From the NCBI GenBank assembly GCA_905250025.1, contig CAJNOJ010000046.1, positions 456,061-520,060 of the forward strand: a stretch of 64,000 nt of DNA, read 5' to 3'. Of this stretch, positions 22,920-64,000 are shown one piece after another. The translations under genes were made by a program, and so were the position numbers. The stretch is from Adineta ricciae (Eukaryota; Rotifera; Eurotatoria; Adinetida; Adinetidae). How positions within the stretch are numbered: position 1 is the first letter of the stretch; every line of letters starts with the position of its first letter. The notes under the pieces are model-generated. The model saw nothing but the letters and a program-made list of their open reading frames with translations, was not told the DNA's origin and ran no database searches.

Positions 22920-24847
22920 ATGCCCGCTTCCGGTAAGTTAACTGATAAATGCTATAAGTAACATGATACTTGACTGTTTTAGTTCGGAAAAAAGCTGGTC
23001 GATCGTCACCAAAAAACAAACAAGCAGCAACAACTAAATCGAAAAAACGTACACTCGAAGACGACAGTGATCTTCACGATGGTTCGTAGAATTTCAAAGC
23101 AACCTTTTCATTTCATTATTCTCTTCAAAATAGATTTACACAATGGAGATAGCCATCCACAAAAACGAACTAGGCCAGCACCTGATGTCGTTCATCTGAC
23201 AAGTAAATATCTCAAAATTTTAGAAAAAAACGATTAGAGGCTAGCTTGTTCTCCTTCGTCTCTAGACGGTCATGCAACAAAGGCCAAATCGCGTGCAAAA
23301 ACTCCTTCAGCATCATCCGTCGTCAATGTGTCTTGTCCATCGTTTTCGCTTTCAACGGCTGGTCAAGTCTTAGCTGTTGGTGATAATGGCATGGCACAAC
23401 TGGGTTTGAAAAGTGCGATTAGTGAACGACAAAATCCTCAACCAGTACCATTACCTGAACTTGTTGTACAAATCGCTTGCGGTCCGCTGCATTCCGTTTG
23501 TTTGACACAAAAAAATCAAATCTATACATTTGGTTGTAATGATGAACATGCATTAGGCAGAGCGGATGTCAATGACGAAGATGACGACGAAGCTGATCAA
23601 TTTGGATTAGTTGATCTGAGTGGAGTTATGGATGTTAATCAAGAAAAGATTGTTCAAATAGTAGCCGGCGATAGTCATACATTAGTATTATCGGATGCGG
23701 GGAAAGTTTATGGTAAGACAGAAGAAATTGTTTTCTTGCTAGAAATTACTCGTTATCTTGTTCACGAATAGGTTGGGGTACATTTCGTTCGAGTACAGCG
23801 GGCGTATATGGTCTCGTACAGAAAGGTGTTATGGCAAAGACTCCTGTTGAAATAGTTTTACCGGAAAAAATTGTGAAATTAGCAAGTGGTTATGACTTTG
23901 TTTTGTTTCTCAGTGAAACTGGACATGTTTACTCGTGTGGAAACGGTGAAACGGGTCAACTTGCTCGATTAAATCGTTACGCAGCCGAAGATGGCCTACG
24001 CGGTGGCATTGGTAAAGAATTTTAGATTGAAATATCTTTTGTTAAATGAAAATCTAACTTCGTTCGTCTTTAGATCGACTAATCCGACCTGCACCGATCA
24101 TTTATAATCGAATGGGAATTAAAGCAAGAAATTTACTATTTGACGATATTTTCACTGGCTCACATCACTTCTTTTTGAAAGTACATGGTCATGATTGGAT
24201 CTTAGGTGGCGGACTAAATAATTTTAATCAACTCGGTAAGTCAAGAGATCGGAGTCAGTATCGCTATAAGACTGCGAAAAATTCTTCCTCTTCAATCATC
24301 TTATATGAACAGTATAGTGACAAGATTTTCACTTTGATTTAGGTTTACCATCCGATGAACCAGTTTATTTTCCGACATTTATTCCATCCCTCGAAGGTAA
24401 AAAATGGGTGAAATTTTCCGGTGGACTACATCACACACTTGGTCTCACTGCAAATGGTAATAGACAACTGTATTCATTCGAAACTAACTTCTACTTGTTC
24501 TTCTTCATCTAGGTGAAGTATATGCTATAGGCCGACATCATGAAGGTCAATTGGGTATTGATCAATTGACCGGACAGCTCACTGAACCAACATTGATCCC
24601 AAACCTATCGGATATTGTTGACATATCTTGTGGCAATCATGTTTCATTTGTGATCAATCGATCTGGTAAAGTCTTTTCATTTGGAGCTGGCACGTCCTTA
24701 CAACATGGTCATGGTCAACAAGATGTAAAAATTCCGCGAATGATGTCATCGAAATACATGGATATTAAAATGGCTCTTAATATAGCTGTTGGCGCTCAGC
24801 ACACCTTATTTCTTACACATGATAACCCTAAAAAAGATGAAAATTAG
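22920..24847 (+). CDS. RCC1: Regulator of chromosome condensation 1 (Ran GEF)
   Basis: Chromatin-bound nucleotide-exchange factor for Ran, with a seven-bladed propeller. The start ATG at 22920 gives a tiny first exon (MPAS), then a basic nuclear-localisation region (VRKKAGRSSPKNKQ, KSKKRTLEDD). RCC1 repeats follow: LAVGDNGMAQLGLK, IYTFGCNDEHALGR, VAGDSHTLVLSDAGKVYGWG across a splice, VYSCGNGETGQLARLNR, VYAIGRHHEGQLGID and VFSFGAGTSLQHGHG. It ends HTLFLTHDNPKKDEN with TAG at 24845-24847. About 480 residues with roughly eight introns. Its last 47 coding bases reappear immediately after the N at 48077, which marks the start of the second copy of the downstream block. Assignment to RCC1 rather than another RCC1-repeat protein rests on the basic N-tail and the acidic insert DVNDEDDDEADQFGLVD. 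Confidence 0.92.
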
Positions 24848-25800
24848 TTGAGAAGAAAAGATTATTCTTTGTTATTGTTGTTTGCTTTTTTATGTCACGA
24901 ATTTTCCCTTTTTTTTGCTATTATGTGGAATTTTTTTTCCTTATGAATTTTTTGTCATTTGCTTAACATAAATAAAACAGAAAGATGAATTTGAAATGAA
25001 CATAAATCTGTGCATTCATTTCGAATGTCTGTTTATTTTTTTCCTGTATGAATTAAATAAAAGAAAAGTAGACGCTTGCATTTCACTTTAGACTTGATGT
25101 CGAATCATTTTTCTTCTTTTGTTTCTAACCATGGTCAATCACATGTCGAGAAAAACCTTCGATTCACTGTCAAAGGCTCCGCCTTTGCGAAATACACAAG
25201 CATGCTTGTGATGAATGATAGTCTGTACTGGATAATCTATGAGTCATAATTATTGAACAATTTACTCTCTCAAAAAGACAGTTGAGTACAAATTCTTTGG
25301 ATAGTTCATCTTGAATATTCAACATTATCAAGTAGGAAACAACAACAAAGAAAAAACGTGAAAAAGGAGCTGAAGAAAAAGAAACATCCATCGTTGTAAC
25401 TGTGTCTATTTGAATGCAAGTTTGTATTATAAAAAAGAGAAGTATAAGAGAAGAGAAACAAGAACAAGGAAAGAAATGAAAAATACACAAATCGTGTTGT
25501 AACAAGAAGAAAAAGAAAGTGATGTTCACTTGTCAATAGCTGAGAACCTATCTACATAAATAGTCAATTTACCATCCTCATCTTTAATAATATATATATG
25601 TATACGTATATATTTGTAAGAAACATTAAAGGAAAATAGCAAACAAAAATACGAGGAAATCTCTCTGATAATGATGGTCAAATTGTAAACAAAATATCCA
25701 ACAAAGAGAAAGAATGGTGAAATGCTTTTTTTTTCTCCATTGACAACACACATACACACTCGGTTTCGACTAGCACAACAATAGATGATCTTTTATTCAG
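24848..25800. other. Convergent 3' interval RCC1 / ILRUN
   Basis: About 950 bases between two convergent genes. It contains AATAAA signals (near 24970 and 25058), long A/T-rich tracts and a TA-rich run (near 25588-25615). Open frames on the minus strand (25170-25529) are compositional. The part 25305-25592 is unusually similar to its counterpart in the second copy, with 4 substitutions counted in about 288 bases, while the sequence just before it (25141-25300) is much more diverged. Confidence 0.6.
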
Positions 25801-26928
25801 TTAAAATGTGTCTAAAGAATTGTCGTCAGTCATTCCATTTGACGATGACGAAGGGTCCGATGGTTGATGATTGATGTTATTCGTTCGAGAGTATTCCTAA
25901 ACATTCATCAAGACAATTATTCGAAGTTCTCATTGCAAAACTCACTGTAACAGGCACAACAGGATAGTTCGTCCAGCCGGGCACATTATTAGTGTCGGTA
26001 TTTGGCCCTAAATCAACAAATTAGTCGTCAGTTTCATTTCACAAGTCATTTCGTTTACATCTCGTTGGTTGAAAAGGATTTGTTGGAGAAGTCTGATGAA
26101 GTAAATTATTTGACGGCTGAATATTCATTTCATGTGGTTCACCAACGTTCATACCGAGAGAATGACATTGCTCAAGCTGTTGAGTGATTCCCATTAGTCC
26201 GCCTTCTTCAACGCTCGCAATTAACCAAATCGGATCTGAATGAAGCAATTTCGAGTTCTCAATTCAAATTAGCTAATATTTATCCTACCTCCAAAGGGTA
26301 CGCCAGCTGAAGTGAATAGACGCCACTGTGATCTGATGATTTTCGGCGTGAATGGACTGGTTATATCAACCGAAATGTTTGTTTGTTCACCTGGTGCTAG
26401 TGAACCAACATAGATTTCATCACGATCTTGCAATCGATCACCGTTAACAAATCTCAATGAGCAGTTCGTTGGCCATGGTTCACTGCCTGAAAAAAAAACA
26501 GCAGATCATTTCACTTCGTATTCAATTCCATTGACTTACCAGAATTTTGTACACGCCAAGTTTTAACAAATCTGGTATTGGGTGGAATGGCTTCACCTTC
26601 GCCAACAGTAACATCGGCAACAAAACGCATTTGTGGAATCTTATCTGTCGGCATTTCAGCATCATAGTACGCAAGAATAGCTTCGTTTAAATTCCTAGAA
26701 AAGATTCTCATAAATACTTGGACATTCTCCTTTTCTAAGTTACCAGTTGCTCATTTCAAGAAAGAAAGCACATCCTTCGTCCGTCAACATTGCATTTGTC
26801 GTCGCGCGAAATTGTGCAATTAGATCTTCTCGATTACTTGTAGTAATGGATCGTAATCTTTCCATTAGATCTTCGTCTAAATTCGCCATAGCAGGATTGG
26901 ATGATATAGGTTCTGAATCGACATCCAT
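25801..26928 (-). CDS. ILRUN: ILRUN (C6orf106-like) protein, copy 1
   Basis: In mammals ILRUN damps antiviral and inflammatory transcription by acting on IRF3 and p300/CBP. The N-terminal exon (MDVDSEPISSNPAMANLDED) carries a UBA-like segment with EDLIAQFRATTN and CAFFLEMSNW, which matches the family's CAFFLDMTNW. An NBR1-like FW domain follows: ILAYYDAEMPTDKIPQMRFV, DVTVGEGEAIPPNTRFVKTW, RVQNSG, then SLAPGEQTNISVDITSPFTP and SQWRLFTSAGVPFGG. The rest reads DPIWLIASVEEGGLMGITQQ and a low-complexity tail ending DDNSLDTF, TAA at 25801-25803. Six or so exons. About 280-290 residues, close to the human length. The second copy is at 49102-50231. Confidence 0.92.
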
Positions 26929-27314
26929 GGATCACAACACAGTAAATGAAATACAAAAAAAGAAATTCGATCTGAAAAACAAGCAGAATGAAAACATGAA
27001 CATATGATTGGCATTTTGTATATCTTGGTAAATAAATAACACTGGGTGTCCTCGAAAATGAAAGTACAGTGCCCTATTTCTTCTGAAGGTCTTTAAAAAT
27101 TTATATACAAGAAAGAGTTTGATGTTAAAATATAACTGATTTCTTTGACGAATCAATTTCCAAAGAAATGAAACACAGTGACGTCATTATTATTCTTTGT
27201 TTAATTATAAAATAAACAGAACAGAAAAAAAAGAGAATCAAACGAAATTATCAGATAATAGTATGTAATGTATATGGCGAAATATCCTGTATACGATAGT
27301 CTCCGTGACTTCGA

Positions 27315-27560
27315 TTAACGTATCAAAACCGTCGATAAATTTGGGATTGTCGAATGTATAATATTATGAATATGAAATGGAACATATACAAATGCTGAGT
27401 AAGTCACTAATGAAATAGCACAAAAGAAGATGCTCATCATCAAGATTCTTTCCCATGGTTCCATGACATAGAGTGTTGTTACTAAGAGAAACTGCATATA
27501 TAAATGCTGGAATGTTTGATATAGACAATTAAACCAAGAGGATTTTCTTGTTGGTTTCAT
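27315..27560 (-). CDS. Serine palmitoyltransferase small subunit, gene 1, copy 1
   Basis: Small activating subunit of serine palmitoyltransferase, the first enzyme of sphingolipid synthesis, in the ER membrane. Single exon, 81 residues. The family core is plain: YMQFLLVTTLYVMEPWERIL, followed by a hydrophobic helix (IFFCAISLVTYSAFVYVPFH) and HIHNIIH. The start MKPTRKSSWFNC is conserved in the second copy (50622-50867). It is the first of two adjacent family members on the same strand. Human has SPTSSA and SPTSSB; whether these two are one-to-one orthologues cannot be told. Confidence 0.88.
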   Translation of the reverse strand: MKPTRKSSWFNCLYQTFQHLYMQFLLVTTLYVMEPWERILMMSIFFCAISLVTYSAFVYVPFHIHNIIHSTIPNLSTVLIR

Positions 27561-28714
27561 CTAATTTATAGGAGAAAGCAGATAAAATGAAGTTCGAATA
27601 TACAAGATTACCATCGATTCGTCGTCGGTTTTGGATAAGGTATTCAAATACGATGTTCGACGTGTTACATTCATACTTCACAAAAGAAAAGGAAAGGTGT
27701 CCTGCTTTATTTGATCGTCGATCCTTTCAACTGAGCTTATATGCACGACTTGATCGAGGCAAAATAAAATGAATATACAAGAAGCAACCGTAGTAACGCA
27801 CTTAACTCGCAAGCAAGTGATCGCGTTGGTAAAACAAAAATAGCAGAGAAAGAGTGACAGAGACAGAGGCGGAGTAATCGTTACAATAGAAGCAGGAGAA
27901 AAAGATTGTGGAAGAAATGAGAAACGAAGTGATTGAGCTTTAACTCATATATGTGAAACGGCGAGAAAAAACAATGGATGAAAATTTGTCGTGTTAGACA
28001 AAAATATTCATTTGGTTAAATTATAATTGCAACCGAAGGTCGTCTTCGATTGATAAACAAGCCATCGAAAGTGAGAGAGAGAGAGAGAGAGAGAGAAGAA
28101 AAACCAACCACGCGCACACAATAAGCTACATGAATGGGCTATTGATACAATTATTTCTTAACGCAAGATACAACACGCATAAAACGGTAAGCGGCTGCTT
28201 ATGTATATTTATTACAGGTAGGAAACGCATTTATACTATGCATAATTACTCTCTTAATCGCAAAGTGAGTAAAATCTTGATCAAGTTCAGAATGACCTTA
28301 TATATCTAAGGAAAAAGTAACTAGAGTAGCGTGGGTAGGAAATTCGTGCTGTTATTTCAAGAACATTCCTGCGATCGTGTGTAAACTTTTCTTTTCGAAA
28401 GTTTCAAGTGTTCTTTGAAGACTATAACGGTATTACATCACATGAGTGATACAAATTGTTTTTTCTTTTAACAGAAATGCGCCATTCCAAATCAGTACTG
28501 TCTATTCGATGCACTCTTTTTTCGTGTTTAATCACGTCAAACGCTAAACGAAGATTTTTCCGAAGACAAAAGTAATTCAATTGAAAACGATCGTATTTTT
28601 TTATTGTTACCTTATTTAAGTATTCAGTAAGCAATAAACTCACATTGAATTGTTTGAAAATTTCTCCTAATCAGTTTGTGGAAAAAGCGTTTATGGTAAA
28701 TATTTGTCTTTTAT
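27561..28714. other. Intergenic interval between the two ssSPT genes
   Basis: About 1.15 kb, AT-rich. It holds a (GA)12 tract but no recognised gene. The open frames at 27587-27772 (plus) and 28422-28643 (minus) are not kept intact in the second copy and are probably chance. Confidence 0.5.
28073..28096. repeat. (GA)12 microsatellite
   Basis: Twelve uninterrupted GA units. The matching position in the second copy (near 51383-51388) has only three units, so the tract is length-variable between the copies. Confidence 0.95.
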
Positions 28715-28918
28715 TCACGAGTAGAATTGTATCATTGAGCGAACATGATGTGGAAGGAACACTAATGCCGAGTAGAGAGCTGTGGAAAGTATCGCGAATA
28801 ATAAGGTTGAGAACAGCAATCGTTCCCAAGGTTCGAGCATGTACAGGGCAGTATTTAAGAGATACTGAAGATAAAGCCAATGAATAAATTTAAAGAAGCG
28901 ACGAATGTAAGATAACAT
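28715..28918 (-). CDS. Serine palmitoyltransferase small subunit, gene 2, copy 1
   Basis: Second ssSPT family member, 67 residues, single exon. Core YLQYLLNTALYMLEPWERLL, then helix LFSTLLFAILSTALYSALVF, then LPHHVRSMIQFYS. It is closer to the vertebrate consensus (YLLVTALYMLEPWER) than its neighbour. An upstream in-frame ATG at 28972 would add 18 residues, but that extension is interrupted in the second copy, so the conserved MLSYIRR start at 28918 is preferred. ER membrane, sphingolipid synthesis. Confidence 0.88.
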   Translation of the reverse strand: MLSYIRRFFKFIHWLYLQYLLNTALYMLEPWERLLFSTLLFAILSTALYSALVFLPHHVRSMIQFYS

Positions 28919-29321
28919 TGTTTTCCAGTGACAATTTTTGTAGGTGTACGATAGTTTGTCTAAAATGTACATGAGAGAGACATGTCGTTTTGAAAACTAT
29001 TCAAGTACGTCGAAGAAAAGTCGGATGATCATTCAACGTCATTCGTACTCGTAATCACAAAATAAAATAAATGACAAACAAAGTAGACAAACAAATCTGA
29101 TCAGTATGATTAGATGATTCACAACAGTCGAATCAAATGAGTAGTTATTACCTCTATTGATACTCAAGAAAGGAAAATTTTTGAAAAGGTAAAAGGTCGA
29201 CAAATAAAAAATGGCAGACTGTCTATTGACAGAACACCAATAGAAACGACAGATCGAAGTCGATATAGCATACTGTAGTGACCTCTATGGAGCAAATGGA
29301 CACAGATAGTAAACGTCACAG

Positions 29322-30017
29322 TTAACGTTTAGTTTTCGATCGTCGTTTTTTCCTTTGAGATCGTTTCCTTTTATTATTCGAAGAATCCGACGAAGTTTTC
29401 GTCTTTTTCGATAGCCCACTATGATCTGATGGTCGATGTACGACAATTTGTGGTGATTCTCCATCTAAAGATTTCTCCTTTGATAACAATCGCTGATCAG
29501 TTTTACGAAGTGTCACATATTGATTAGATGGACTTTCGGACAATGACTTTGGTATTGGCGTAGCAGTCGAAAAGTTATCTTCGTTGTCAGTAGTATCATT
29601 GATGAGAGGTGCATTTACCACCGGTGGTACAGAACGAAGACCATAGCTTTCTTCTGCCTCACTCTATTGAACATATCTAACACTATTGATATTTTCTATT
29701 CGCTTACTAGTTTTTCTAGATTGTGTGTATAATATATTAGAATGTATTTCACTGCTCGTTCCCGTAATACCTCCGGCGACGATAGAGGCTACAATGGGAC
29801 CAAGTAAATATTGGTGTTTGTTTTTGCTCGGCAGATATACTACCTGTGCATTAAAAACTTGCTCGTAAGCAGCAAGAGTTACTAAGTCGAGTGCCGGTAA
29901 GCGTTCTCTGTGTTTCGTTTGGATAAGATTGCAAATAGTTTTGAGTTCTTGCCGAAGATAGATATTTCGTATGGCAGTTAACTGGCCGGCAACGATTTCC
30001 GGTGTTGGACATTGCAT
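29322..30017 (-). CDS. Unrecognised protein with lysine/arginine-rich tail, copy 1
   Basis: Not recognised. Three exons are inferred: 29844-30017, 29708-29788 and 29322-29663, with introns of 55 and 44 bases (GTAGTATATC..TTGTAG and GTAAGCG..CAATAG). The spliced product is 198 residues: a helical N-terminal part (TAIRNIYLRQELKTICNLIQ), then PLSSPEVLRERAVKYILIYY, a polar linker, and a basic tail NKRKRSQRKKRRSKTKR that looks nuclear or nucleolar. Both copies keep this frame only when the introns are removed, since unspliced reading meets a stop in the second copy. That is good evidence for a real gene. Downstream, on the same strand, of the PKA-like gene, with about 125 bases between. Confidence 0.7.
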
Positions 30018-30142
30018 TTAAAAAATGAGAGAAATTGAAAGAAAGAATGAACAATCAGCGGGAAATTTCAAGAAAAGAGTTAAGTCAGCGAGCATTCCAG
30101 GAAATTTTATTCTATATGATAGAAATGAGACAATGTTTTCTA

Positions 30143-31458
30143 CTAAAATTTATCAAATAAATTGTATTCTTCGTTTGTACATTGTGGTGCGTGAAAGCGT
30201 TCGTGTGTAAACGACTCAAAATTTTGTGTATCACCTGGATAATCAACTCTCGGTACGATCGGAGGCTAAAATAAGAATGTCTTTAAGGTTTTTTTCCCTG
30301 CATGACTGTCTTACTCGTATTCTTCCTTCAAGAGCATCTGTCCATGGGACTTGTTTAAACCATCGATGTCGTTTTATATCACTAGCTCCTCCAGCCATAC
30401 ATCCCATACGACGTGTTCGATCACGTTCAAGAAGTTTCCGTATTAAATTTCGTCCTGTACGATCAATAATTCTATAAATCACAACAACTTTGTAATTTTA
30501 TACATTCCTTTGAAAGAATATTCACTCGGAGTGGCACGGAGGTGCGTACGGCCACGGGATCTGAGCATTTAGAATTCTCAGAAATATACTAGATGGATGA
30601 TTTTGCTGGTCGATTGCGGCGAATGGTGTATGTCCCACTAATAATTCATAGATTACAATTCCTAAGGCATACCAATCAACGCCAAATGAATGGCCATGAC
30701 TCGAGAGAATCATTTCCGGAGCGAGATATTCAGGTGTACCGCATAATGTATACGTTCTAGAGAAAAAGAAAAGATTTCACGTTTAATTAATGAACTAATA
30801 ACGTTCATTTCCTAATTAACCTGTCTGGGACGTATTTTGAAAAGCCAAAATCAGTCAATTTGACATGTCCATGAGCATCAAGTACTAAATTCTCCAACTT
30901 CAAATCTCTAACATTGAGAATAATGATGTATTTATAATAGCGAAAAGAAAACATTCTTGAATTTCGCTGTTACCTATAGACGATGAGAAGGTTATGCAAA
31001 TATTCCAAGGCAAGGATAATTTCACAAGCATAAAATCTTACAGCCGTCTTCCTTAGACGACCCGCTTGACGAAAGTAAGAGAAGAGCTCACCGCCAGACA
31101 AAAATTCCATTGATAAATACAAATAACGCGTATCTCGATACGATTCATAACTTAAAAAACGAATAATCATCAACTAAATCTAGTTGACAACTTACAAACG
31201 AACTATGAACGGATGTTGAACAGCCGCAAGAATTCTTCGTTCATCATTCACATGATTCACTTGTTTCTTTTCTACGATATCTCGTATGGCCATCGTTTTC
31301 ACTACGAAAAACTCTTCATAATTTTCAGAACATCGACGAGCTAATATAACTCGACTAAATGTTCCAACACCTAATCGATAAACAACATAAAATATTCTTG
31401 GAATTCATTTTTGATCGAGTTATCTCGCCTTACCAATAGTTGTTATCAATTCTTCCAT
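30143..31458 (-). CDS. cAMP-dependent protein kinase-like catalytic subunit (AGC kinase), copy 1
   Basis: Serine/threonine kinase of the PKA/PRKX group. The ATP loop reads [13 protein letters not shown] across the first splice, the ATP lysine lies in [11 protein letters not shown], the catalytic loop is [19 protein letters not shown], the DFG is in [10 protein letters not shown], and the activation segment is [13 protein letters not shown] with the threonine phosphorylated in PKA. The C-lobe shows [18 protein letters not shown] and [17 protein letters not shown]. The protein ends NLFDKF, the FxxF tail typical of PKA. TAG at 30143-30145. The start at 31458 (MEELITTI) is the first ATG after an in-frame stop, giving a very short N-terminus; an upstream exon is possible. 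PKA catalytic alpha-type and PRKX cannot be separated by eye. Confidence 0.87.
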
Positions 31459-31821
31459 GAATAACTTGTGGTTACTTTCACGGAAATCTTCTTGCTGATA
31501 TCCACGTAATCGAGCGAACGGAAGAAAAACAGGAGAATCTTATACGTCATTCGTCCGTCTATTTATCATTCTTTAGCCTTGGGCAGACATATGTCAGCGG
31601 GACAAGTAAATTGAAGACATTTACTGTGCCCGTAAATATTGTTTTCTTATTCGTTTTTTTTTTGTTTTTCATTTCATATTGAAAAGTGATACACGCACAC
31701 AAACGGATACAAACAAATTGAACAAAACAAAAAAAAGTGTTATCTATTCATGAGAATGAAGAAAAACAAACTTGAGGGTCGCTTAGCGATTTAATTAGAT
31801 TAGAAATTTTTCGAATTATAT

Positions 31822-34800
31822 TCATATCGGAGAAACAACTTCTCGTTGTCGACGAATCATATTCTAAAAACAAGCCATATGTATTCATTGCTGAACTGGA
31901 ATCGATTCTAGACACAAACCTCTCTAATAGTCGATAGTTGTTGTAAGATTTGTTCTTGTTTCGTTGCAGGCGTACTATACTGAATAGGTTGTGTAGTAGG
32001 ATATTGTCGATTGGTATTTTCCGAATCGTATGCTTGATAGTTTGTATTTGCATTCGTCTAGAATAACAAATATAAGTATTGCTGATCGGAAGTAAAATGC
32101 TTACTTCTGATACTGGTTGATAAGATGTTGTGTTCATAGGTTGCGACGATTCAGGTGCTTCGTCAGTCCGTGAATATGGCACATAATTATCATATCTTTC
32201 TAACGATGATGGATGATTGGAAGTATATTGATCATCTGCTTTGACATGATTGCTTGGAGGATATCTTGTTCCGTACGTATCATTTTGTTGTTTATGTTGC
32301 CCTCTGAGTAAATTCATGATGCTTTCATCCTTGTGATGACCATGACTTGCTGTTTTTGGAACACGAGTACGTGTTACTTGTTTTTTCTCGATTTCGCTAT
32401 CACTGTTCCAACGATTGTAACATGTTTTCTTTTGCACATCGTCGATACAATCATAGTTTCCTAGTTCCATGTTTTTCAGACGCTGACGTTTTTCATAATG
32501 CGGGTCACGTTTCGAATTGGGAATGTATTCACCACGCTTTTGTTGGTTGTAGTTCCATAACGGACGATTGTGAACGTCAGTTGCGCCGTGGCTCGTACGT
32601 TGACCATTCATTTGAGAAGTTGTACCAGCATTATGTGCGTTCATATGATGGTTTGCATGTGAAGTATGTCTTGATGGCTGATTGTCGTCAGCAGAATGCA
32701 TATGCGTCGGTTTTTTACCTGGATAGTGGGAATTATTTCGATAGACTCCATCACGATGATGATTAGGAACTTGAGGAGGGAGATCTGAATCTTCGTATGC
32801 ATGACTGGGCCCTCGACGATTGGGAGGACGACGATAATCAATTTGATCTCTAGATGGATAGGACAACAAGTTATTTGAAGGAAAAATCGATTCATTGTTG
32901 TTCTCACCCTCGAAATGTAGCATCAACCGTGTTGACAGATTCATCTCGACGAGCATCACTTGGTCGATAGGCCTGCTGTCGGTCGAAACCAACATGCAAA
33001 TGGGGTGGCTCAGTTTTACTATTCGAATTTGAACCGAACAGATTTTCTCCTGATCTTTGATTCGATGTTGCACCATTCGATTTGACATCTATAAACATTG
33101 ATCATGAATTATTGATCGAAACTACAAGGAAAACTGAATACCGTTGTGATGTGTAGAAGAGACGTCAGATGATGGTGGTGGCGGGTGTCGACTGGCAGCT
33201 TCTTGAACAAGTGGGTGTACTTTATCACGTAAAAAGTCCTGCCGACGTTCAGATTCCTGCTGTACATATTTTTTTCGCTTGTTTTCCTCGATTTGTTTAT
33301 GTAGATCATCCAACCATTGGCGACGTTCCATTTCTTTGAGTGTTTCAACGTCTTCCTGATGACGATCATTACCAAATGCTATGTTCGTTCGCATTGCAGC
33401 TGGAACACGCCCTCGATCGCTAGGAAGAATGGTAGACACAGAATTCTCTTGCGCTCGTGGTGGAGAGCGATGAAGTGGAGGAACGTTTGCTATCGTATTC
33501 TAAAATTTCCAAACACCGTTCAAAACAGAAATGTCCTGATGAGATACGAACATTTATTCGTGGTTGAGTATCATGACGTTTCGGCGCACCAGCGCCCGGA
33601 CGTCCAAATGGATCCCAGTATGACATTTTATCCGCTAAAAAGTCGTAAACGCTTGAACAAATCTCTCGAATATATTTCATACGAAACCTACAGTTTTCTT
33701 GATTCCATTGCTGTTGCTTCTTCTCCATTAGTCGTGTTTTCATTGGATCTTGACTTTCATCTAGTGGAATACGTTGAATATTCGACGATGTACTTGTTTT
33801 TCGACCTACCTTCGTTGTTTCTTGTTGACATATCGTACTGCTGACCGTTTTGCTTTAAAGATGCAGGAGCCGACGACTTATTCGTCGTTGATGGAGGGAA
33901 ATCATATTGAAACGTTGATCGTTCTGAAGTACAAGAAAACAAATGAACGAAAGAATTCTATTGAACCTTACGAGGTGATGCATTTTTCTTCTGACGTGGT
34001 GATAACTGATGTTTGAGTTGATCATATTCGATTTCCAGTTGCATTCGCTCAATTTCAGCTATTAAATATTAACGAATCGAATTTACGTAATGTAAAACTA
34101 CTTTCATATAAGAATACCTTTTTCTTTCAACCATTTCTCACGTTTTTTACTCGCCATTCTGTTCAATGTCTCTTCTCGCGGTGTCGTTTGAGATACCGGT
34201 AATGGTGGCGGTTCCAATCCTAAATCTAAATTCGGTACAGCGGTTGCAACTGTTGGTTCACTATGATATCGTGGTGGTGACAATGCTGAATAAACAACAA
34301 ATAGTTTAGGAAAACTCCCACACTCAAATCTGTCAACATACCCTTGGTATCTGAAGTATGATTTGAATCATCTAAAAGAATGATTGTTGTTTATGAAATG
34401 AAGGTTTTGTCGAATGAGTTTCTACTTTTAGAGTTTTCTTTCACAGCAGTGACAAGATCAGCGATTTCATCCATGGTCATATAAACTCCTAATGAATCAT
34501 CGTCGTTAACTCGTTTTTTATTCGTTGACTGCTCATTTTTCGTTGGTTGTCTTTTTGGTTCCACGTATTTTTGATTATCTCCTTTATTTCTTTGATCAAA
34601 CTGCCGGGTTGTAGTATTTATTGCTCGACTATTTCTCTTTGATCTTGCTTTTGTCGACGAGTCATCTACATACATTTTCAATAAAGATTTCACTGAGAAA
34701 ATTCAATCAATTGATAAACACAAACCGATTGCATCGTAGAAAATTTGAGGTTTACCATTCACCATTTGCGTTCGAAAATTCATTTTATCAGTTTCTGATT

Positions 34801-34865: not shown

Positions 34866-35047
34866 TTTCTCGATCTTCTAAAACGAGTTTACCAAGGCTT
34901 CGTAAATCTAAAAAATACTCCTATGTTTTCAAATAAGTGAATTCCAATGTCGCTATGTGAAGTGCTATAGTAAAATTCTTTTTTTTTCTTTGTTTGTATT
35001 TTTAAAACAGCTTTCTCCTTCGTTCATGAGCACCAATCACGGTTAGC

Positions 35048-35060: not shown

Positions 35061-35188
35061 AGCCTTTATTTTCTTCTGATTCGATTCATGCAAACATATT
35101 TATAAATCCGAGCATTTGGTTTTCAAATTTCATAATTAGACTCTTGAAAAATATCAAAATAGATCGAGATAGTGTTGAAGAACATCGC

Positions 35189-36063: not shown

Positions 36064-36070
36064 TCGATAT

Positions 36071-52229: not shown

Positions 52230-52632
52230 TGTTTTCCAGTAACTATGTTTGAATGTGTATGATAGTTTCGTCTAAAATACGAACAAGAGGGACATGTCGT
52301 TTTGAAAACTATTCAAGTACGTCGAAGAAAAATCGGATGATCATTCAACGTCATTCGTACTCGCAATCACAAAATAAAATAAATGACAAACAAAGTAGAC
52401 AAACAAATCTGATGAGTATGATTAGATGACTAACAACAGTCGAATCAAATGAGTAGTTATTACCTCTATTAATACTTAAGAAAGGAAAATTTTTGAAAAA
52501 GGTAAAAGGTCGATAAATAAAAAATGGCAGACTGTCTCTTGACAGAACACCAATAGAAACAACAGATCGAAGTCGATATAGCATACTGTAGTGACCTCTA
52601 TGGGTCAAATAGATACAGATAGTAAACGTCAG

Positions 52633-53325
52633 TTAACGTTTATTTTTCGACCGTCGTTTTTTCCTTTGAGATCGTTTCCTCTTATTCGAAGAATTCGACG
52701 AAGTTTTCGCTTTTTTTGATAACCCACTATGATCTGATGGTCGATGCACGACAATTTGTGGTGACTCGGCACCTAAAGATTTCTCCTTTGATAATAATCG
52801 CTGATTATTTTTACGAAGCGTCACATATTGACTAGATGAACTCTCGGACAATGAATTTGATATTGACGTAGCAGTCGAAAAGTTATCTTCATTGTCAGTA
52901 GTATCATTGATTAGAGATGCATTTATCACCGGTGGTTCAGAACGAAGACCATAGCTTTTTTCTGCCATACTCTATTGAATATATTTAGTACCATCAATAT
53001 TTTCTATTCGCTTACTAGGTTTTCTAGATTGCGTGCATAGTACATTAGAATGTATTTCACTGCAAGTTCCCGTAATACCTCCGGCGATGATAAAGGCTAC
53101 ACTTGGATCAAGTAATTATCGGTGTTTGTTTTCTCTCGGTAGATATACTACCTGTGCATTAAAAACTTGCTCGTAAGCAGCAAGAATTACTAAGTCGAGT
53201 GCCGGTAAGTGTTCTCTGTGTTTCGTTTGGATAAGATTATAAATAGTTTTGAGTTCTTGACGAAGATAGATATTTCGTATGGCAGTTAACTGGCCGGCAA
53301 CGATTTCTGGTGTTGGACATTGCAT
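52633..53325 (-). CDS. Unrecognised protein with lysine/arginine-rich tail, copy 2
   Basis: Second copy of 29322-30017. Exon 1 starts MQCPTPEIVAGQLTAIRNIY; unspliced it would stop at NKHR, but removing the GT..AG intron restores PLSSPEVLRELAVKYILMYY, and a second intron leads to SMAEKSYGLRSEPPVINASL. One asparagine codon is lost before the basic tail (SSNKRKRSQRKKRRSKNKR). Frame is kept through all three exons. Function unknown. Confidence 0.7.
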
Positions 53326-53450
53326 TTAGAAAAAGAGAGAAATTGAATGAAAGAATGAACAATCAGCGGGAAATTTCAAGAAAAGAGTAAAGTCAGCGAG
53401 CATTCCAGGAAATTTTATTCTATATAATAGAAATGAGACAATGTTTTCTA

Positions 53451-54773
53451 CTAAAATTTATCAAATAAATTGTATTCTTCGTTTGTACATTGTGGTGCGC
53501 GAAAGCGTTCGTGTTTAAACGACTCAAAATTTTGTATATCACCTGGATGATCAACTCTCGGTACGATCGGAGGCTAAAATAAGAATGCCTTTAAGATTTT
53601 TTCCCTGCAGGACTGTCTTACTCGTATTCTTCCTTCAAGAGCATCTGTCCATGATACTTGTTTAAACCATCGATGTCGTTTTATATCACTAACTCCTCCA
53701 GCCATACATCCTATACGACGCGTTCGATCACGTTCAAGAAGTTTCCGTATTAAATTTCGTCCCGTACGATCAATAATTCTATATTTAAACAACTTCATAA
53801 TTTTATATATTTCTTTAAAAGAGTATTTACTCGGAGTGGCATGGAGGAGCGTACGGCCACGGGATCTGATCATTCAGGATTCTTAGAAATATGCTAGATG
53901 GATGATTTTGTTGGTCGATTGAGGCGAATGGTGTATGTCCCACTAATAATTCATAGATTAAAATGCCTAAAGCATACCAATCAACGCCAAACGAATGACC
54001 GTGACTTGAGAGAATCATTTCCGGAGCGAGATACTCAGGTGTACCGCATAATGTATACGTTCTAGAGAAAAGAAAAGATCTCACGTTTAATTAATGAACT
54101 AATAACGTTCATTGCCTAATTAACCTGTCTGGAACGTATTTTGCAAAGCCAAAATCAGTCAATTTGACATGTCCATGAGCATCAAGTACTAAATTCTCCA
54201 ACTTCAAATCTCTAACATTGAGAATAATGATGTATTTATAATAGAAAAAGAAAACATTCTTGAATTTCGCTGTTACCTATAGACGATGAGAAGGTTATGC
54301 AAATATTCCAAGGCAAGGATAATTTCACAAGCATAAAATCTTACAGTCGTCGTTCTTAGACGACCCGCTTGACGAAAGTAAGAGAAGAGCTCGCCACCAG
54401 ACAAAAATTCCATCGATAAATACAAATAACGCGTATCTCGATACGATCCATAACTTTAAAAAACCGAATAATCATCAACTAAATCTAGTTGACAACTTAC
54501 AAACGAACTATAAACGGATGTTGAACAGCCGCAAGAATTCTTCGTTCATCATTCACATGATTCACTTGTTTCATTTGTACGATATCTCGTATGGCCATCG
54601 TTTTCACTACGAAAAATTCTTGATAATTTTCAGAACGTCGACGAGCTAATATAACTCGACTAAATGTTCCAACACCTAATCGATAAACAACATCAAATAT
54701 TCTTGGAATTCATTTTTGATGGAGTTATCTTATCTTACCAATAGTTGTTATAAACTCTTCCATGAATAACTTG
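53451..54773 (-). CDS. cAMP-dependent protein kinase-like catalytic subunit, copy 2
   Basis: Same exon layout and motifs as 30143-31458: GVGTF loop, [32 protein letters not shown] and the NLFDKF end (TAG at 53451-53453). Changes are conservative or in variable loops, such as MCTAGG-region [12 protein letters not shown] and [11 protein letters not shown]. Start at 54773 (MEEFITTI) matches the copy-1 start. Confidence 0.87.
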
Positions 54774-55137
54774 TGGTTAGTTTTACGGAAATCTTCTTGC
54801 TGATATCCACGTAATCGAGCGAACGGAAGAAAAACAGGAGAATCTTATACGTCATTCGTCCGTCTATTTATCATTCTTTAGCCTTGAGCAGACATATGTC
54901 AGTGGGACAAGTAAATTGAAGACATTTACTGTGTCCGTAAATATTGTTTTCTTGTTCGCTTTCTTTTTTTGTCTTTCATTTCATATTGAAAAGTGATACA
55001 CGCACACAAACGGATACAAACAAATTGAACAAAACAAAAAATGTGTTATCTATTGATGAGAATGAAGGAAAACAAATTTGAGAGTCGCTTAGCGATTTAA
55101 TTAGATTAAAAATTTTTCGAATTATATTCATATCGGA

Positions 55138-58100
55138 GAAACAACTTCGCGTTGTCGACGAATCATATTCTAAAAACAAGCCATATGTATTCATTGCTGT
55201 ACTGAAATCGATTCTAGACACAAACCTCTCTAATAGTCGATAGTTGTTGTAAGATTTGTTCTTGTTTCGTTGCAGGTGTACTATACTGAATAGGTTGTGC
55301 AGTAGGATATTGTCGATCGGTATTTTCCCAATCGCGTGCTTGATAGTTTGTATTTGCATTCGTCTAGAATAACAAATATAAGTGTTGTTGATCACAAGTA
55401 AAATACTTACTTCTGATACTGGTTGATAAGATGTTGTTTCCACGGGTTGCGACGATTCAGGCGCTTCGTCAGTCCGTGAATATGGCACATAGTTATCATA
55501 TCTTTCTAATGATGACGGATGATTGGAAGTATATTGATCATCTGTTTTGACATGATTGCTTGGAGGATATCTTGTTCCGTACGTATCATTTTGTTGTTTA
55601 TGTTGCCCTCTGAGTAAATTCATGATGCTTTCATCTTTGTGATGACCATGACTTGCTGTTTTTGGAACACGAGCACGTGTTACTTGTTTTTTCTCGATTT
55701 CGCTATCGCTGTTCCAACGATTGTAACATGTTTTCTTTTGCACATCGTCGATACAATCATAGTTTCCTAGTTCCATGTTTTTAAGACGCTGTCGTTTTTC
55801 ATAATGTGGGTCACGTTTTGAATTGGGAACGTATTCACCACGCTTTTGTTGGTTATAGTTCCATAACGGACGATTATGAACGTCAGTTGGACCATGGCTC
55901 GTACGTTGACCATTCATTTGGGAAGTTGTACTAGTATTATGTGCGTTCATATGATGATTTGCATGTGATGTATGTCGTGATGACTGATTGTCGTCAAGAC
56001 AATGCATATGAGTCGTTTTTCTACCTGGATGGTGAGAATTATTTCGATAGACTCCATCACGACGATGATTAGGAACTTGAGGAGGGAGATCTGAATCTTC
56101 GTATGCATTACTGGGCCCTCGACGATTCGGCGGACGATGATAATCAGTTTGATCTCTAGATGGATAGGACAACAAGTTATTTGAAATAAAATTCGATTCA
56201 TTGTTGTTCTCACCCTCGAAATGTAGCGTCAACCGTGTTGACAGCTTCATCTCGACGAGCATCACTTGGTCGATAGGCTTGCTGTCGGTCAAAACCAACA
56301 TGCAAATGAGGCGGTTCAGATTTACTATTCGAATTTGAACCGAACAGATTTTCTCCAGATCTTTGATTCGATGTTGCACCATTCGATTTTACATCTACTA
56401 ACATCGACCATGAATTATTGATGAAAATACAAGGAAAAGTGAATACCATTGTGATGTGTAGAAGAAACGTCAGATGATGGTGGTGGTGGTGGATGTCGAC
56501 TGGCTGCTTCTTGAACGAGTGGATGTACTTTATCACGTAAAAAATCTTGCCGACGTTCAGATTCCTGCTGTACATATTTTTTCCGCTTGTTTTCTTCGAT
56601 TTGTTTATGTAGATCATCTAACCATTGACGACGTTCCATTTCTTTGAGTGTTTCAACGTCTTCCTGATGACGATCATTACCAAATGCTATGTTCGTTCGC
56701 ATTGCAGCTGGAACACGCCCTCGATCGGTAGGAGGAATGGCAGATACGGAATTTTCTTGCACTCGTGGTGGAGAGCGATGAAGTGGAGGAACATTTGCTA
56801 TCGGATTCTAAAATTTCAAAACATCATTCCAATGAGAAATGTGCTGATGAGATACGAACATATATTCGTGATTGAGTATCATGACGTTTGGGTGCACCAG
56901 CGCCTGGACGTCCAAATGGATCCCAGTATGGCATTTTATCCGCTAAAAAGTGGCAAATGCTTGAACAAATCTCTCAAATATATTTCATTTCAAACTTACA
57001 GTTTTCTTGATTCCATTGCTGCTGCTTTTTCTCCATTAGTCGTGTTTTCGCTGGATCTTGACTTTCATCTAGTAGAATATATTAAATATTCGACGATGTA
57101 CTTGTTTCTCGACCTACCTTCGTTGTTTCTTGTTGACATATCGTACTGCTGGCCGTTTTGCTTTGAAGATGCAGGAGCCGACGATTTATTCGTCGTTGGT
57201 GGAGGAAAATCGTATTGAAACGTTGATCGTTCTGATGTACAAGAAAACAAATGAACGAAAGAATTCTATTGAACCTTACGAGGTGATGCATTTTTCTTCT
57301 GACGCGGTGATAACTGATGTTTGAGTTGATCATATTCGATTTCCAGTTGCATTCGTTCAATTTCAGCTATTAAATATTAACGAACCGGATTTTCGTGATG
57401 TAAAACTACTTCCATATAAGTATACCTTTTTCTTTCAACCATTTCTCACGTTTTTTACTTGCCATTCTGTTCAATGTCTCTTCTCGCGGTGTCGTTTGAG
57501 ATACTGGTAATGGTGGCGGTTCCAATCCTAAATCTAAATTCGGTACAGTAGTTGCAACTGTTGGTTCACTATGATATCGTGGTGGCGACAATGCTGAATA
57601 AATAACAAATAGTTTAGGAGAAAATTTTTACACTCAAATCTGTCAACATACCCTTGGTATCTGAAGTATGATTTGAATCGTCTAAAAGAATGATTTTTGT
57701 TAATGAAATGAAGGTTTTGTCGAATGACTTTCTACTTTTAGAGTTTTCTTTCACAGCAGTGACAAGATCAGCGATTTCATCCATAGTCATATAAACTCCT
57801 AATGAATCATCTTCGTTAACTCGTTTTTTATTCGTTGACTGATCATTTTTAGTTGGTTGTCTTTTTGGTTCGACATATTTTTGATTATCTCCTTTATTTC
57901 TTTGATCGAACTGCCGGGTTGTAGTATTTATTGCTCGACTATTTCTCTTTGATCTTGCTTTTGTCGACGAATCATCTACATTGATTTTCAATAAACATTT
58001 GACATAGAAAATTCAATTAATTGCTAAATACAAACCGATTGCATCGTAGAAAATTTGAGGTTTACCATTCACCATTTGCGTTCGAAAATTCATTTTATCA

Positions 58101-58175
58101 GTTTCTGATTAAACGAACGAATTGACTTATACTAAAAGAATATCTCAATTCGATTTTACCTGTTATAGCAGCCAT
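55138..58175 (-). CDS. Coiled-coil protein, CCDC66-like, copy 2
   Basis: Counterpart of 31822-34865, start MAAIT at 58175 and end RRQREVVSPI with TGA at 55138-55140. The coiled-coil exon (RRQWLDDLHKQIEENKRKKY) is unchanged; a proline is added in the HPPPPP run, and the His/Asn-rich C-terminal exon carries most replacements. Frames are intact throughout. A long plus-strand frame (56625-57218) is antisense to these exons and is not a gene. Confidence 0.6.
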
Positions 58176-58357
58176 TTTATCGATCTTCTAAAACGAGTTT
58201 ACCAAGGCTTCATAAATCTAAAAAATACTCCTATGTTTTCAATTAAGTGAATTCCAATGTCACTATGTGAAGTGCCATAGTAAAATTCTTTTTTTTTCTT
58301 TGTTTGTATTTTTAAAACAGTTTTCTTCGTCGTTCATGAGCACCAATCACGGTTAGC

Positions 58358-58370
58358 GTTGCTAAACAAC
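58358..58370. promoter_or_regulatory. X-box-like (RFX) site, distal, copy 2
   Basis: GTTGCTAAACAAC, identical to 35048-35060 although neighbouring bases differ between the copies. Confidence 0.65.
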
Positions 58371-58498
58371 AGCCTTTATTATCTGCTGATGCGATTCATT
58401 CGAACATATTTATTAATCTGAGCATTTGAGTTTCAAATTTCATAATTAGATTGTTGAAAAATATCAAAATAGATCGAGATAGTGTTGAAGAACATCAC

Positions 58499-58511
58499 GT
58501 TGCTAAGCAAC
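58499..58511. promoter_or_regulatory. X-box-like (RFX) palindrome, proximal, copy 2
   Basis: GTTGCTAAGCAAC, identical to 35189-35201, with a substitution directly before it and another just after it. The 141-base distance to the distal site is also the same in both copies. Confidence 0.75.
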
Positions 58512-58595
58512 AACTTTTATTAGCTCGATAAGCATGATCATATGTCACTCATTTTTCACAGTTTTTTTTGTTCGCGATCAATTGTGACTTCAACG

Positions 58596-59382
58596 ATGAG
58601 CTCGAAAAAAGTAATTTCGTCATCAGAAAAGCGTATTGATAATCATGCGCAATCGTGTCCACCATTGGATTATTCATTTCATAATGCTCAACAACTCGAA
58701 GGTACAATCTGTTGATGCTCTGTTTATTTAAATTCTACGTTATCTGTCATATAGACGCTGTCGTCGAGCCTCGTATTTTAACAACTGGACCGAAGCTAAC
58801 TAAGGAAGGCGATCGATACAATTCGTATGGAATTAATTTAAACCATAATGCTTTGCATGGTCCGCTCGAAACCTTTCCGGAATTTGTTCGATCGATTCTG
58901 GTGAATCCGGATGCTCTTTCGACGTTAGATTTATCATTTAATTTATTCACTGAAATCCCGATGGTGAGCGAACATGAACGATTCTCATGACATCTTTTTC
59001 TTCTTAACTCCTCGGGAGAGACAGATGTCGTCATGACAAGTTTTCATTTGTTTATCATCGCCGTGCGATTTCTGTTATTTTTTTTTAGGTCGTAACTCAA
59101 TTTCCTGCGCTGAAATGCTTTTACTTTCATAAAAATATCCTTACGGATATGAATGAAGTTCAAAAACTAGCTCCGTTGAAACAATTGAAATATTTGACGT
59201 TGCATGGAAATCCAATTGAAATAACAGTGCCTTTTTTACGTTCGTATGTTTTATGTCTGCTACCCGGTTTACGTAGTTTGAATTGTACACCTGTTACTAA
59301 AGGTGATCGAAAAACAAGTGAAGTTTGGGGAGGAATGAATAAAGATTTACTTCCAAGATATACAAATAAAAAGACAAAATAA
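58596..59382 (+). CDS. LRRC51: Leucine-rich repeat-containing protein 51, copy 2
   Basis: Three exons as in 35286-36063, with a single start ATG at 58596. The LRR core is almost unchanged (LSTLDLSFNLFTEIPM, LKYLTLHGNPIEI); replacements include MNKDLLPRYTNKK near the end. The second intron differs by several indels while its splice sites are kept. TAA at 59380-59382. Confidence 0.9.
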
Positions 59383-59393
59383 TCGATATCGAG

Positions 59394-59403
59394 CTTTTTT
59401 CAG
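59394..59403 (+). promoter_or_regulatory. Candidate trans-splice acceptor before E2-like gene, copy 2
   Basis: T-run plus CAG ending 20 bases after the LRRC51 stop and 11 bases before the E2-like ATG. The T-run is shorter than in copy 1, but the CAG and its distance to the ATG are the same. Confidence 0.5.
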
Positions 59404-59414
59404 ATCACTAGTCT

Positions 59415-59867
59415 ATGAGTGCTAACATCGCTGCTGCCGCTGCTGCCGCTACTGCTTCTGCACGACCAAATAAGCAGGTAGTACTGATTCAACGTCAGTT
59501 GGAGATATTACGGCAGAAACCATTGAGTTTTGTTCAAAACTTGAACACAGAACAACATGATGGTACCAATGAAGTGACTGGTATCATGACTGGACCAGAA
59601 AACAGTCCATACGCCGGTAATCAGTTCAATTTTATTCTTCGATTTCCACCCGAATATCCTTTCAAACCACCAGCAGTTCACTTCACTAGTGCGATTAATC
59701 ATCCAAATATCAGTTCAAAAGATGGCTTTGCATGTGATGATGTATTAATGGGAACATGGAACACAAAAATGGATTTGATTGATGTATTAAATGGAACGCA
59801 TTCACTGTTAGCGAATCCAAATTATGACAAACCAGTTGATAGTGTTCCATCGTCCGGACAGCAATAA
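59415..59867 (+). CDS. Divergent ubiquitin-conjugating enzyme E2-like protein, copy 2
   Basis: 150 residues, six fewer than copy 1. The UBC core is conserved, including the HPN motif and the putative catalytic cysteine in FACDDVLMGTW. The proline of the GPENSPYAGNQF region and PPEYPFKPP are closer to the E2 consensus than copy 1 (PLEYPFKPP). The alanine run is shorter, and a small indel near the end changes the last residues (VPSSGQQ instead of IPSPDSNNQK). Confidence 0.8.
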   Translation: MSANIAAAAAAATASARPNKQVVLIQRQLEILRQKPLSFVQNLNTEQHDGTNEVTGIMTGPENSPYAGNQFNFILRFPPEYPFKPPAVHFTSAINHPNISSKDGFACDDVLMGTWNTKMDLIDVLNGTHSLLANPNYDKPVDSVPSSGQQ

Positions 59868-60203
59868 GCAGAAATAATTGATATCTAGCTTCCATTATAT
59901 CCTAGAGCAATAATATTAAACCAGAACAGTGATTATTATTTGTATATTTTCCCAGTGTTGTTAGAGTAACATTTTCGTATCGTTTCATGCGTTTCAAAAT
60001 CGAAAGTCATATGTCAAAAAATATCAATAGTGAATATCTGTTTTATAAAAATTCTTTTGTTTTGTTTCTTTTATGATTGCTGAACACAAGACAGAAGGTA
60101 ATCTTAAAAACTTTGATTCTATTTTATTTCGAAAACAGTACAGCGTGAAAAAAATAAAATACTGTTATCCATCATTGTCAGTTTTCTTTTTCGCTTAAAA
60201 AGG
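59868..60203. other. Convergent 3' interval E2-like / NO VEIN-like, copy 2
   Basis: About 335 bases, counterpart of 36569-36891, AT-rich with an AATAAA-like signal near 60155. No other feature seen. Confidence 0.5.
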
Positions 60204-63200
60204 CTAGGTTCGAGGCTTCATTGTCATACTAAGCTGAAGTTGTTTCTTTTGTAAATTTTCTTTGATTCGGTTGATTACTGTGATCGTGGATAAATCTCGA
60301 TTATCTGCATAATAAACTCGATAAATGAAATAATTAGTCGGGTGTTGGAGGAGATATTCAAATTCAGCAAAAGATACAGGAAATGTATTTTGTTCAAGTG
60401 TGCGAGTTGTTTTGACTTCAATGAATTCCATTCTGGCATCTTCTGATGAAAAAATTAGCCGAATATCGTACGGTTTCCCAGATTCAGTTGTTTGATTTAA
60501 CCATTCGATGGTTTCCTTCGGATATTTCCATTTCAGGTAATAGAATACGAATTCTTCACCTTGACGACCTGTGAGTACATCAGCTTCAGTTCCGTGAGGA
60601 CGGTTGGGAATACTAACGGATGGATCATTTGCTGATGAAGCATTAAATAGATCAAGATCAGGGAGGGTAGAAACGGTAATACGTTCAAAATTAGCGGCGA
60701 ACGAAATCGGATCCGAATAATTAATAGGAACATGAGATTGACGAGAGTTTTCTTTGTTATTGTCATCGGTTGAACAAGATTTACTTTGTTCACCTAAAAA
60801 CAATGATTGAGACTATTAGTTTTCAAGTCAAATAATTGATTTTGAACTTACTATCGGGATGTTTGTCTCGTTTTGTCTGCTTCGCTCGATTTTCATTATT
60901 TTGGTGTTCATGATCGTCCGATGTTCGTGATTGACGATCGCCCGAATCTAATGTAACTGTAGGTTTTTCTTTGGTTGAGTTTTCAGCGGTAGATTTTGAC
61001 GTTGTTTTCAGTGTAGAAGGATCTTTCGATTCTGCAGCGCCTGCTTTCAAAGGGAAACTTGTTAGTTGATTCGCGTTTTCTTCATTTGTAGTTTCTTTTG
61101 CTCGCGGTTTCGGTCGACGAGTAGGTTCACTACTCAACTGTTCAATCTGTTCATCTGTTATTACTGGTTTCTCGACTACTGGTATCTTCTCTTCTTTCAA
61201 TGTAACTGAAACATCTTTGTTTGCAATCTCTGGAATGGTCCATTTTGGTTCGTGATTTGTCTTTAAATTTTTATGCGGTACATCTAGGCCATGATCCGCA
61301 TCGTTCTGATACATCTGCAAGAGTTTTCGAATACATGTTAAGAGTTTTGATCGAGCGCCGTCATCTTTCACGATAAATTCGACCATTGCATCGATGTACC
61401 GCATCTCTGAATTTTCATATTTCTTCAAAATATAAAATTTGCATTCTTGCTGATCAATATACGTATCGATGCTGTGCAAATTCGAAGGTGCTTTGACAAG
61501 GTCACTTCCGTACGAATACGAAACTTGAATATGATCAACGCACAAAAATTGCATGCGTGCAAAGATTGCTGATAGATGATTCGATTGGGTATCGGATATA
61601 AAATGATTCGACAGTACAAAATCTTGAATAAGATCGATTGATTGACGGTAAAAACTGGATAAGTTTATTGCAGGTTGCTCATTTTCAACAGTAACTCTTG
61701 TTTGAATATGATTTGCAAGATCTTCGATGTTGAAAAGTATGCAAAAATGCTTTTTGAAATCAGATGAAAGATCATAACCTAAATAAATAACTGACAACAA
61801 ACAAAGAATTGAAATTTTGTTTCACCTACTCGGTAGTTTGATGACCGATAGAACATCAACGAACAGATTAGCAATATCACGATCATGCGGGTAGAATGGA
61901 TGATCAGTGTATTTCATTAGTTTTTGATTTTCATTCATACAGGGAATGAATGGAAGATCAAGTAATTTCTCTATTTAAAAAAAAGTATGAATACAAATGT
62001 GAAATCGTTTGTAGAAATCTTTCATACCTCGAACTTCTTTGTGCTTCTCTTGCTCTATAGTTAATTTCGTAATTACTTGAATAACTTGCCAGAGTTGATC
62101 GTTCTCGTGAATATTTGATAACAACGGAATATAATCATCAATAATTGGTTGACACTCGACACCGAGAACTTCAAGAAAGAAGGATTGTAAAATTGTATTA
62201 TTTCCATAATAAGATTCCAGCGAAATTCGATTGTTGGAGGTCGGATGTGATGAGAGAAGTAACGAGGGATCATGCCAAAATGTTTGTCGGACAAAGACAA
62301 AGTTTCCTTCCTTTTGATTTTCGGGTATGAATATGAGTGGCCAAAGGTGAAAACGATGAACAAGACTTCTAGTTTCATGATCCGATGCAAGAAACTGGTA
62401 GATTTGACAGAAGTTATCGATAGAGTCCAAACAACTCTGTTTAAATGTACTAGGAAGAGTACAAGGAATGCTAAAATCGAACCAAAGTTAGATCAGAACA
62501 TGATTCTATGAAAAGAAATGTGACTTTCTTATCTCAACTTACAATTCAGACGCTTGTGTTTCATTTACCAAATTCCACAATGCTTCTTTATTTAAATCAC
62601 ATGACCATTTCATCAATAATTCGAATATAATTCTAGCCGAAACAGATTGCTGAATACCAAGTATATTAGACAGAAAATCTAAATTGATTAATGATACTTT
62701 CGATTCATCTAAATGTGGAACATATCGTCGAAAAGCAGAGGTTTGACTATTCTGCGATATTATATATACATCGTTAGGTTTGAATAGTTTACCACCAAGA
62801 ACAGGAATCCAAGCACGTTGTCTCAATGAAAGACAAAATGATGATTCAATACCTTGAATTGGCGTTGGATTGTATTTATATGTTCGAGCTAGATAGACTG
62901 AAGCAGTGAAAAATGTCATAATATATCGATAATGTTTGTCTAAATAGTGAAGCAACTGTCCACATAGATCCAGGTCATTAGATTCATTTTCGTCAAGAGT
63001 CGAAATGAGTTTATCGAATTCTTCGCACACGCAATCTTTGATGATAAACGGCTCGTGAACAGATTCCGATAATTGTGCCATGGAATATGCCCATTTGGTA
63101 TTTAGTAATCCATCCACACTGGCAAAAGCTAATGAAAAGAAGAAAACATTATTTTGAGAAATAGCTGATTGGTAGCAAACTTACGTTCATCTTTGAAATT

Positions 63201-64000
63201 GACTTGAAAAGAGTCAGAGATGCCCAGTTGGTTGAGAAATGAAAGAAAATAGTTTATTTCGCTATCGGTATTCAACAGATCTGTACGATATTGTGTGTAA
63301 TAATCATCGGAGATGAATACAAACTGATGTTTTGATAATTTCAACGTCTCTAAAGACTTTTTACATCCATATTTTGCTGTTAGATGGACAATAATATCAG
63401 GTGAGCCTAACGAAACGAATTTATTGTCACGGGTTTTTACAACCAAAACTTTTCTCAACGTTTCCAATTCATTTTCAGATAGCATATATCCCTTTGCTTT
63501 ATAGATATAATCATAAATACACATAACGTAGGCAACTAATACCGAATCTGACTTTGCAGTCCAACGCTTTGGATCTGACATGACGGGTAGCATATGAAGA
63601 CGGTACATTTCATTAATATTACGTGTTTCGGTAACACCTACAGCATAGAAATGATTGATCAGTAAAAAGAAACGAAAGTTTATATTACATACCGAGTTTC
63701 AGAAGGAGTTGTTTAATCGAGTCCACCTGTCTTGGATGTTTATCTTCGATAAAAGTTAAGAGATACTCATCCAATGTTGGTATATCCTCAAGAACGAGTT
63801 TCAAGTGTTTGGAATACTTCACTGATTTGTCTAATGGAAATGTGATCGCATATTTCTCGAATTCGTTGATAGATGCTAAGCGTGATTGTTGTTTGATCGG
63901 AATGATCTTCATCTGTTTGATTTTTTCGATCGTTTCTTTTTCAACCTTTGGATCATGGTCAGGATTAAAGCGCATTTGTTCGCGTTGTTGTTGAAGACTG
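60204..64000 (-). CDS. Giant NO VEIN-like protein, copy 2, 5' part beyond window
   Basis: C-terminal part only, matching 36892-40688. It includes the complete DUF3883 exon (GRQGEEFVFYYLKWKYP, KPYDIRLIF, EFIEVKTTRT) and the helical middle region, with the same six exon boundaries. The nuclease-like acidic and lysine residues are unchanged. The GHKL ATPase part would lie beyond base 64000. Confidence 0.85.

Follow-up and report, generated by a model that had tools for sequence, protein, structure and literature searches.

The window, a stretch of 64,000 nucleotides of Adineta ricciae, corresponds to C46:456061-520060, and scaffold C46 is 520,060 bases long, so that the window end is the scaffold end. 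A multigene block of about 16 kb occurs in it twice, copy 1 at 24801-40688 and copy 2 at 48078-64000, both on the plus strand. The sequence-only reading had claimed a repeat in direct order, and self-BLAST recovered it at exactly the coordinates claimed. The only N of the window, at 48077, is the join between the contig of copy 1 and that of copy 2, which begins on the next base and extends to the last base of C46. With an N directly before it and the scaffold end after it, copy 2 is a whole contig of 15,923 bases, terminal on the scaffold and attached by one N. Copy 1 lies within a contig free of Ns that starts at scaffold position 356061 or further upstream and ends at 504136; none was present in the 100 kb upstream of the window. 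A sequenced junction between the copies was looked for in the window and is absent, the junction being the N itself.

Inside the block, 4 of the 16 open reading frames (ORFs) scanned have a Pfam match: an SPT_ssu-like protein, a ubiquitin-conjugating enzyme, a NO VEIN C-terminal domain and a leucine-rich repeat (LRR), the last of these falling short of Pfam's cut-off. Also within the block lies the tail of an RCC1-repeat gene whose last ORF, taken as its last exon, occupies 24488-24847 on the plus strand. The contigs on both sides of 48077 end inside genes. Copy 2 starts within the counterpart of the last RCC1-repeat ORF, of which a truncated remnant is left at 48078-48124 on the plus strand, reduced, as read from the sequence, to the final 14 sense codons plus the stop. 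The opposite contig carries, at 47597-48076 on the minus strand, an LRR-protein ORF that runs into the N and is cut by the contig end. The stretch after copy 1, 40689-48076 on the plus strand, has no allele of at least 90% listed elsewhere in a search that covered 40700-48076. A minus-strand ORF at 41500-42522 carries a Sacsin-domain match (E 5.7e-11).

The block pair is the sole non-trivial match in a self-BLAST of the window with E values up to 1e-10, and both block edges are exact in the self-alignment. The two copies share 93.41% identity over 15,982 columns, with 900 mismatches and 153 gap columns. MAFFT gave 930 mismatches in 15,832 paired bases (5.9%), made up of 654 transitions and 276 transversions and distributed over the whole block at 1.2% to 11.8% per full 500 bases. 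The alignment is unbroken, and an identity of 93% is maintained throughout, non-coding DNA included. Is this the distance between alleles or between ohnologues? Two scaffolds that match the window and form an allelic pair, C97 (361,376 bases) and C258 (142,668 bases), are 93.7% identical over 34,928 columns, and the block's ohnologues on both consist of short pieces at about 70-86%. In six ORFs that have a Pfam match or exceed 340 aa, Ks lies at 0.09-0.19: 0.193 for the SPT_ssu-like ORF, 0.163 for the LRR ORF under the Pfam cut-off, 0.115 for the ubiquitin-conjugating enzyme, 0.091 for the NO VEIN C-terminal ORF, and 0.104 and 0.152 for two long ORFs without a Pfam match. Pooling nine ORFs with Ka/Ks below 0.4, a selection that favours high Ks, gives 0.148, and the range is 0.02-0.26 across 27 ORFs of at least 90 aa, overlapping non-coding frames included. 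Published averages for A. ricciae, as given in the text available from PMC5916493, put homologues at 0.135 and ohnologues at 1.27; the copies do not reach the ohnologous value of about 1.27. Judged by their divergence, copies 1 and 2 are alleles, and the earlier proposal of allele-level divergence is borne out by the agreement of 93.4% with 93.7% and by the Ks values. A genome search with 34000-38000 listed two matches of at least 90%, both on C46, and searches with the flanks 20500-24800 and 40700-48076 listed one each at that level, the window itself. Our statements of absence rest on queries of at most 7.4 kb, which listed the window's own match; longer queries missed that match and do not enter into these statements. 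The genome searched comprised 130.5 Mb in 1,033 contigs, against 4,302 in the published account as it is available in PMC7943196, short ones presumably having been left out.

C97 also provides an independent view of what should adjoin 48076. It matches the window collinearly at 5070-21570, 26148-33337 and 47016-48076, the last match ending at C97:52828. In the 40 kb fetched from each of C97 and C258, copies 1 and 2 match one single stretch, situated between the matches to 5070-21570 and 47016-48076. Beyond 52828, the best match of C97 besides itself and its allele C258 is the start of C757 (25,167 bases) in the same order, and weaker matches are found to C16, C400 and C263. The gene order across 48077 finds no support in this relative, where what follows has its best ohnologue in C757 and not in copy 2. 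At this point C97 encodes an LRR protein in two adjacent minus-strand ORFs, 52984-53931 and 52355-53056, which from their adjacency and LRR content we infer to be exons of one gene. The match between the ORF 52355-53056 and the window extends as far as 48076 (56% over 158 aligned residues), and the ORF 52984-53931 matches C757:327-1172 (54% over 282), the upstream partner of the ORF cut at 48076. A second match of the latter ORF, to C757:3068-3904 (53% over 279), is explained by the doubled stretch with which C757 begins. The first 76 residues of the ORF 52355-53056 were found neither at the window end nor in C757:1-6000, so that 48076 and C757 are not linked letter to letter. This comparison points to C757 as the most likely place for the rest of the gene interrupted at 48076, with a short piece in between left unassembled: an LRR ORF cut at the contig end, a partner on C757 and the adjacency of both on C97 make C757, and not copy 2, the likely neighbour. 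LRR genes are a repetitive class, and the C757 match is possibly a paralogue instead of the true continuation.

Elsewhere the ohnologous relationships of the window are less uniform. The stretch 40866-45142 finds its matches on C132 (278,781 bases), and C97 has just 2.1 kb between its matches to 33337 and 47016, so that the ohnologous regions differ in content there. The RCC1-repeat gene (23360-24800) has its best relative among the matches listed on C25, at 72%, and not on C97 or C258.

The join at 48077 is one of a kind that recurs in this assembly. We surveyed 290 kb: 164 kb of C46 (including the window), 40 kb each of C97, C258 and C132, and 6 kb of C757. Apart from C46, scaffolds entered this sample for matching the window or C97 and not at random, and the doubling in C757 was already visible before that scaffold was fetched. 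This sample contains seven single-N joins (one each in C46, C757 and C258 and four in C132), and at all seven the opening base of the right-hand contig already belongs to a direct copy of sequence lying further upstream on that scaffold. The copies are 93-97% identical at six of the joins, and in C258 the overlap is exact and 221 bases long. Among three longer runs of N, the 67 N in C258 accompany an exact 154-base overlap; for the 22 N in C97 and the 1,830 N in C132 no overlap was found among matches of at least 150 columns. Same-scaffold BLAST matches of at least 500 bases and 85% identity straddle single Ns in 7 of 7 cases, at six joins, and none lies in N-free sequence; among smaller ones (at least 200 columns), a 246-base match straddles a single N and a 347-base repeat does not. 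The individual joins are instructive in their own right. Those at C132:163757, 170064, 193844 and 196093 each stand directly before a 93-96% copy of upstream sequence, and the contig 193845-196092 is wholly bounded by two of them. C757:1-5478 is another allelic tandem, in which the first 2,739 bases and the contig past the single N are 97% copies. At C258:81543-81985 and 83486-83860, contig ends that overlap exactly remain separate, with 1 N between those sharing 221 bases and 67 N between those sharing 154.

The contig ends carry a further signature. The final 121 bases of copy 2 (63880-64000) are identical to 40568-40688, the probable point of haplotype merging, and we infer that this identical end is the place where an assembly bubble closes. 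Only 29 of 15,849 columns lie at least 121 bases into an identity run in the alignment of the copies minus its last 130 columns. A run of 121 bases recurs at the start of the second contig of C757, and one of 221 bases at three other contig ends. Altogether 5 of 12 contig ends have a run of 121 or 221, the remaining seven measuring 13, 16, 16, 61, 144, 150 and 154; this count leaves out one end that the alignment fails to reach by a single base. At its left, copy 2 begins with just 16 identical bases in the MAFFT alignment, and a long overlap is absent. The recurrence of exact values suggests k-mer overlaps of a de Bruijn assembler. PMC7943196, in the portion available, gives a final k of 121 in SPAdes for the maximum-haplotig set of A. 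ricciae and not for the reference set; the genome analysed here resembles the reference set, and a final k of 121 leaves the run value of 221 unexplained. According to PMC7943196, the DNA of A. ricciae ARIC003, very probably the assembly analysed here, had undergone whole-genome amplification.

Based on these observations, we propose that copy 2 is a misplaced haplotig, the other allele of copy 1, mis-joined during assembly, and that no real rearrangement has taken place. We hold this reading with very high confidence. The bdelloid is highly heterozygous, and copies 1 and 2 would be its two alleles at a single locus. The second allele of the 16 kb stretch was probably kept by the assembler as a contig of its own because it differs by about 6%, and a scaffolding step may then have put this allelic contig after the contig of the first allele, with one N between them. 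The true location of copy 2 would be on the homologous chromosome, opposite 24801-40688, and the true sequence past 48076 is probably scaffold C757. Of the two outcomes left open by the sequence-only reading, a haplotype mis-join or a chromosomal rearrangement, the former is favoured by the N at the join, by the pattern at 7 of 7 single-N joins and by the apparent continuation of the cut gene on C757, and the same three observations leave the latter unsupported. Some points speak against a mis-join. The scaffolder presumably had some evidence for linking the contigs, a backward overlap of 23 kb is long for short-insert pairs, and the end runs are uneven, with so short an identity at copy 2's left end and 7 of 12 runs being neither 121 nor 221. 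SSPACE-type tools write a single N for negative gaps. The literature passages available to us do not say which scaffolding tool inserts a single N.

A real tandem segmental duplication on one chromosome, 6% diverged with age and with an assembly gap at its junction, would likewise place the copies in direct order on one scaffold, and the single-copy state of the flanks 20500-24800 and 40700-48076 in the assembly is as compatible with a local duplication as with a mis-join. Nevertheless, we consider it very improbable: the junction is an N and not sequence, the divergence equals that between alleles, the LRR gene at 48076 appears to go on in C757, and the identical pattern is seen at all seven single-N joins. 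Moreover, at such heterozygosity a duplication should have left further allelic copies, and just two matches of at least 90% are listed for 34000-38000. There is an equally slim chance that a direct transposition or duplication united both alleles of the 16 kb block on one chromosome and broke the LRR gene, the gap falling at the junction by chance. A real ameiotic rearrangement, an idea formerly put forward for Adineta vaga, would bring the two alleles of the region onto one chromosome and has precedents in the linked homologous blocks of the 2013 A. vaga assembly and in two tandem blocks of an older A. ricciae assembly, both described in the available part of PMC5916493. The same source states that many of the detected breaks span scaffold gaps and that at least some of them may be scaffolding errors, a single palindrome is reported in a later A. 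vaga assembly in the text available from PMC7749112, and the evidence from single Ns and C757 counts here as well, so that we regard such a rearrangement as extremely unlikely. That the copies are an ohnologous pair from ancient tetraploidy has a practically negligible probability: bdelloids are degenerate tetraploids, so a block in two related copies is to be expected (PMC5916493, available text), but the real ohnologues on C97 and C258 stand at about 70-86% and copies 1 and 2 at 93% throughout, a divergence that refutes this candidate.

What are the implications of a misplaced haplotig? One apparent case of linked alleles would be removed, and such linkage has served as an argument that chromosome pairing is impossible in bdelloids. 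Our observations also suggest a rule for this assembly: single-N joins can mark tandemly placed allelic contigs, and scaffolds should therefore be broken at single Ns before tandem duplicates or linked alleles are counted. Gene counts from this assembly may be inflated in the same way.

How does the block relate to arrangements already described? Like the palindromes and linked alleles of A. vaga from 2013, which according to the available part of PMC5916493 were then taken to indicate ameiotic evolution, it has alleles sharing one scaffold; unlike them, it is in direct order, the A. vaga blocks being mostly inverted (23 of 25). Artificial palindromes can arise from erroneous scaffolding, as noted in the text available from PMC7953838. 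For the A. ricciae assembly nAr.v1.8, the available text of PMC5916493, published in 2018, reports two linked homologous blocks only, both tandem, on scaffolds ARIC00305 and ARIC00659. These resemble the present case in being homologous blocks in direct order on one scaffold of A. ricciae, but belong to a different assembly. The closest parallel is heterotype false duplication, an assembly error class characterized by allelic copies with a gap between them (PMC9516828, Ko et al. 2022, as available). As in that class, two diverged alleles stand on one scaffold and are separated by an assembly gap; the locus differs in that the second allele is a terminal contig of 16 kb attached through a single N. 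A gap separates the copies at 48077 and their difference is allele-like (93.4% against 93.7%), and as far as it could be tested on these sequence features, the block fits the class of heterotype false duplications.
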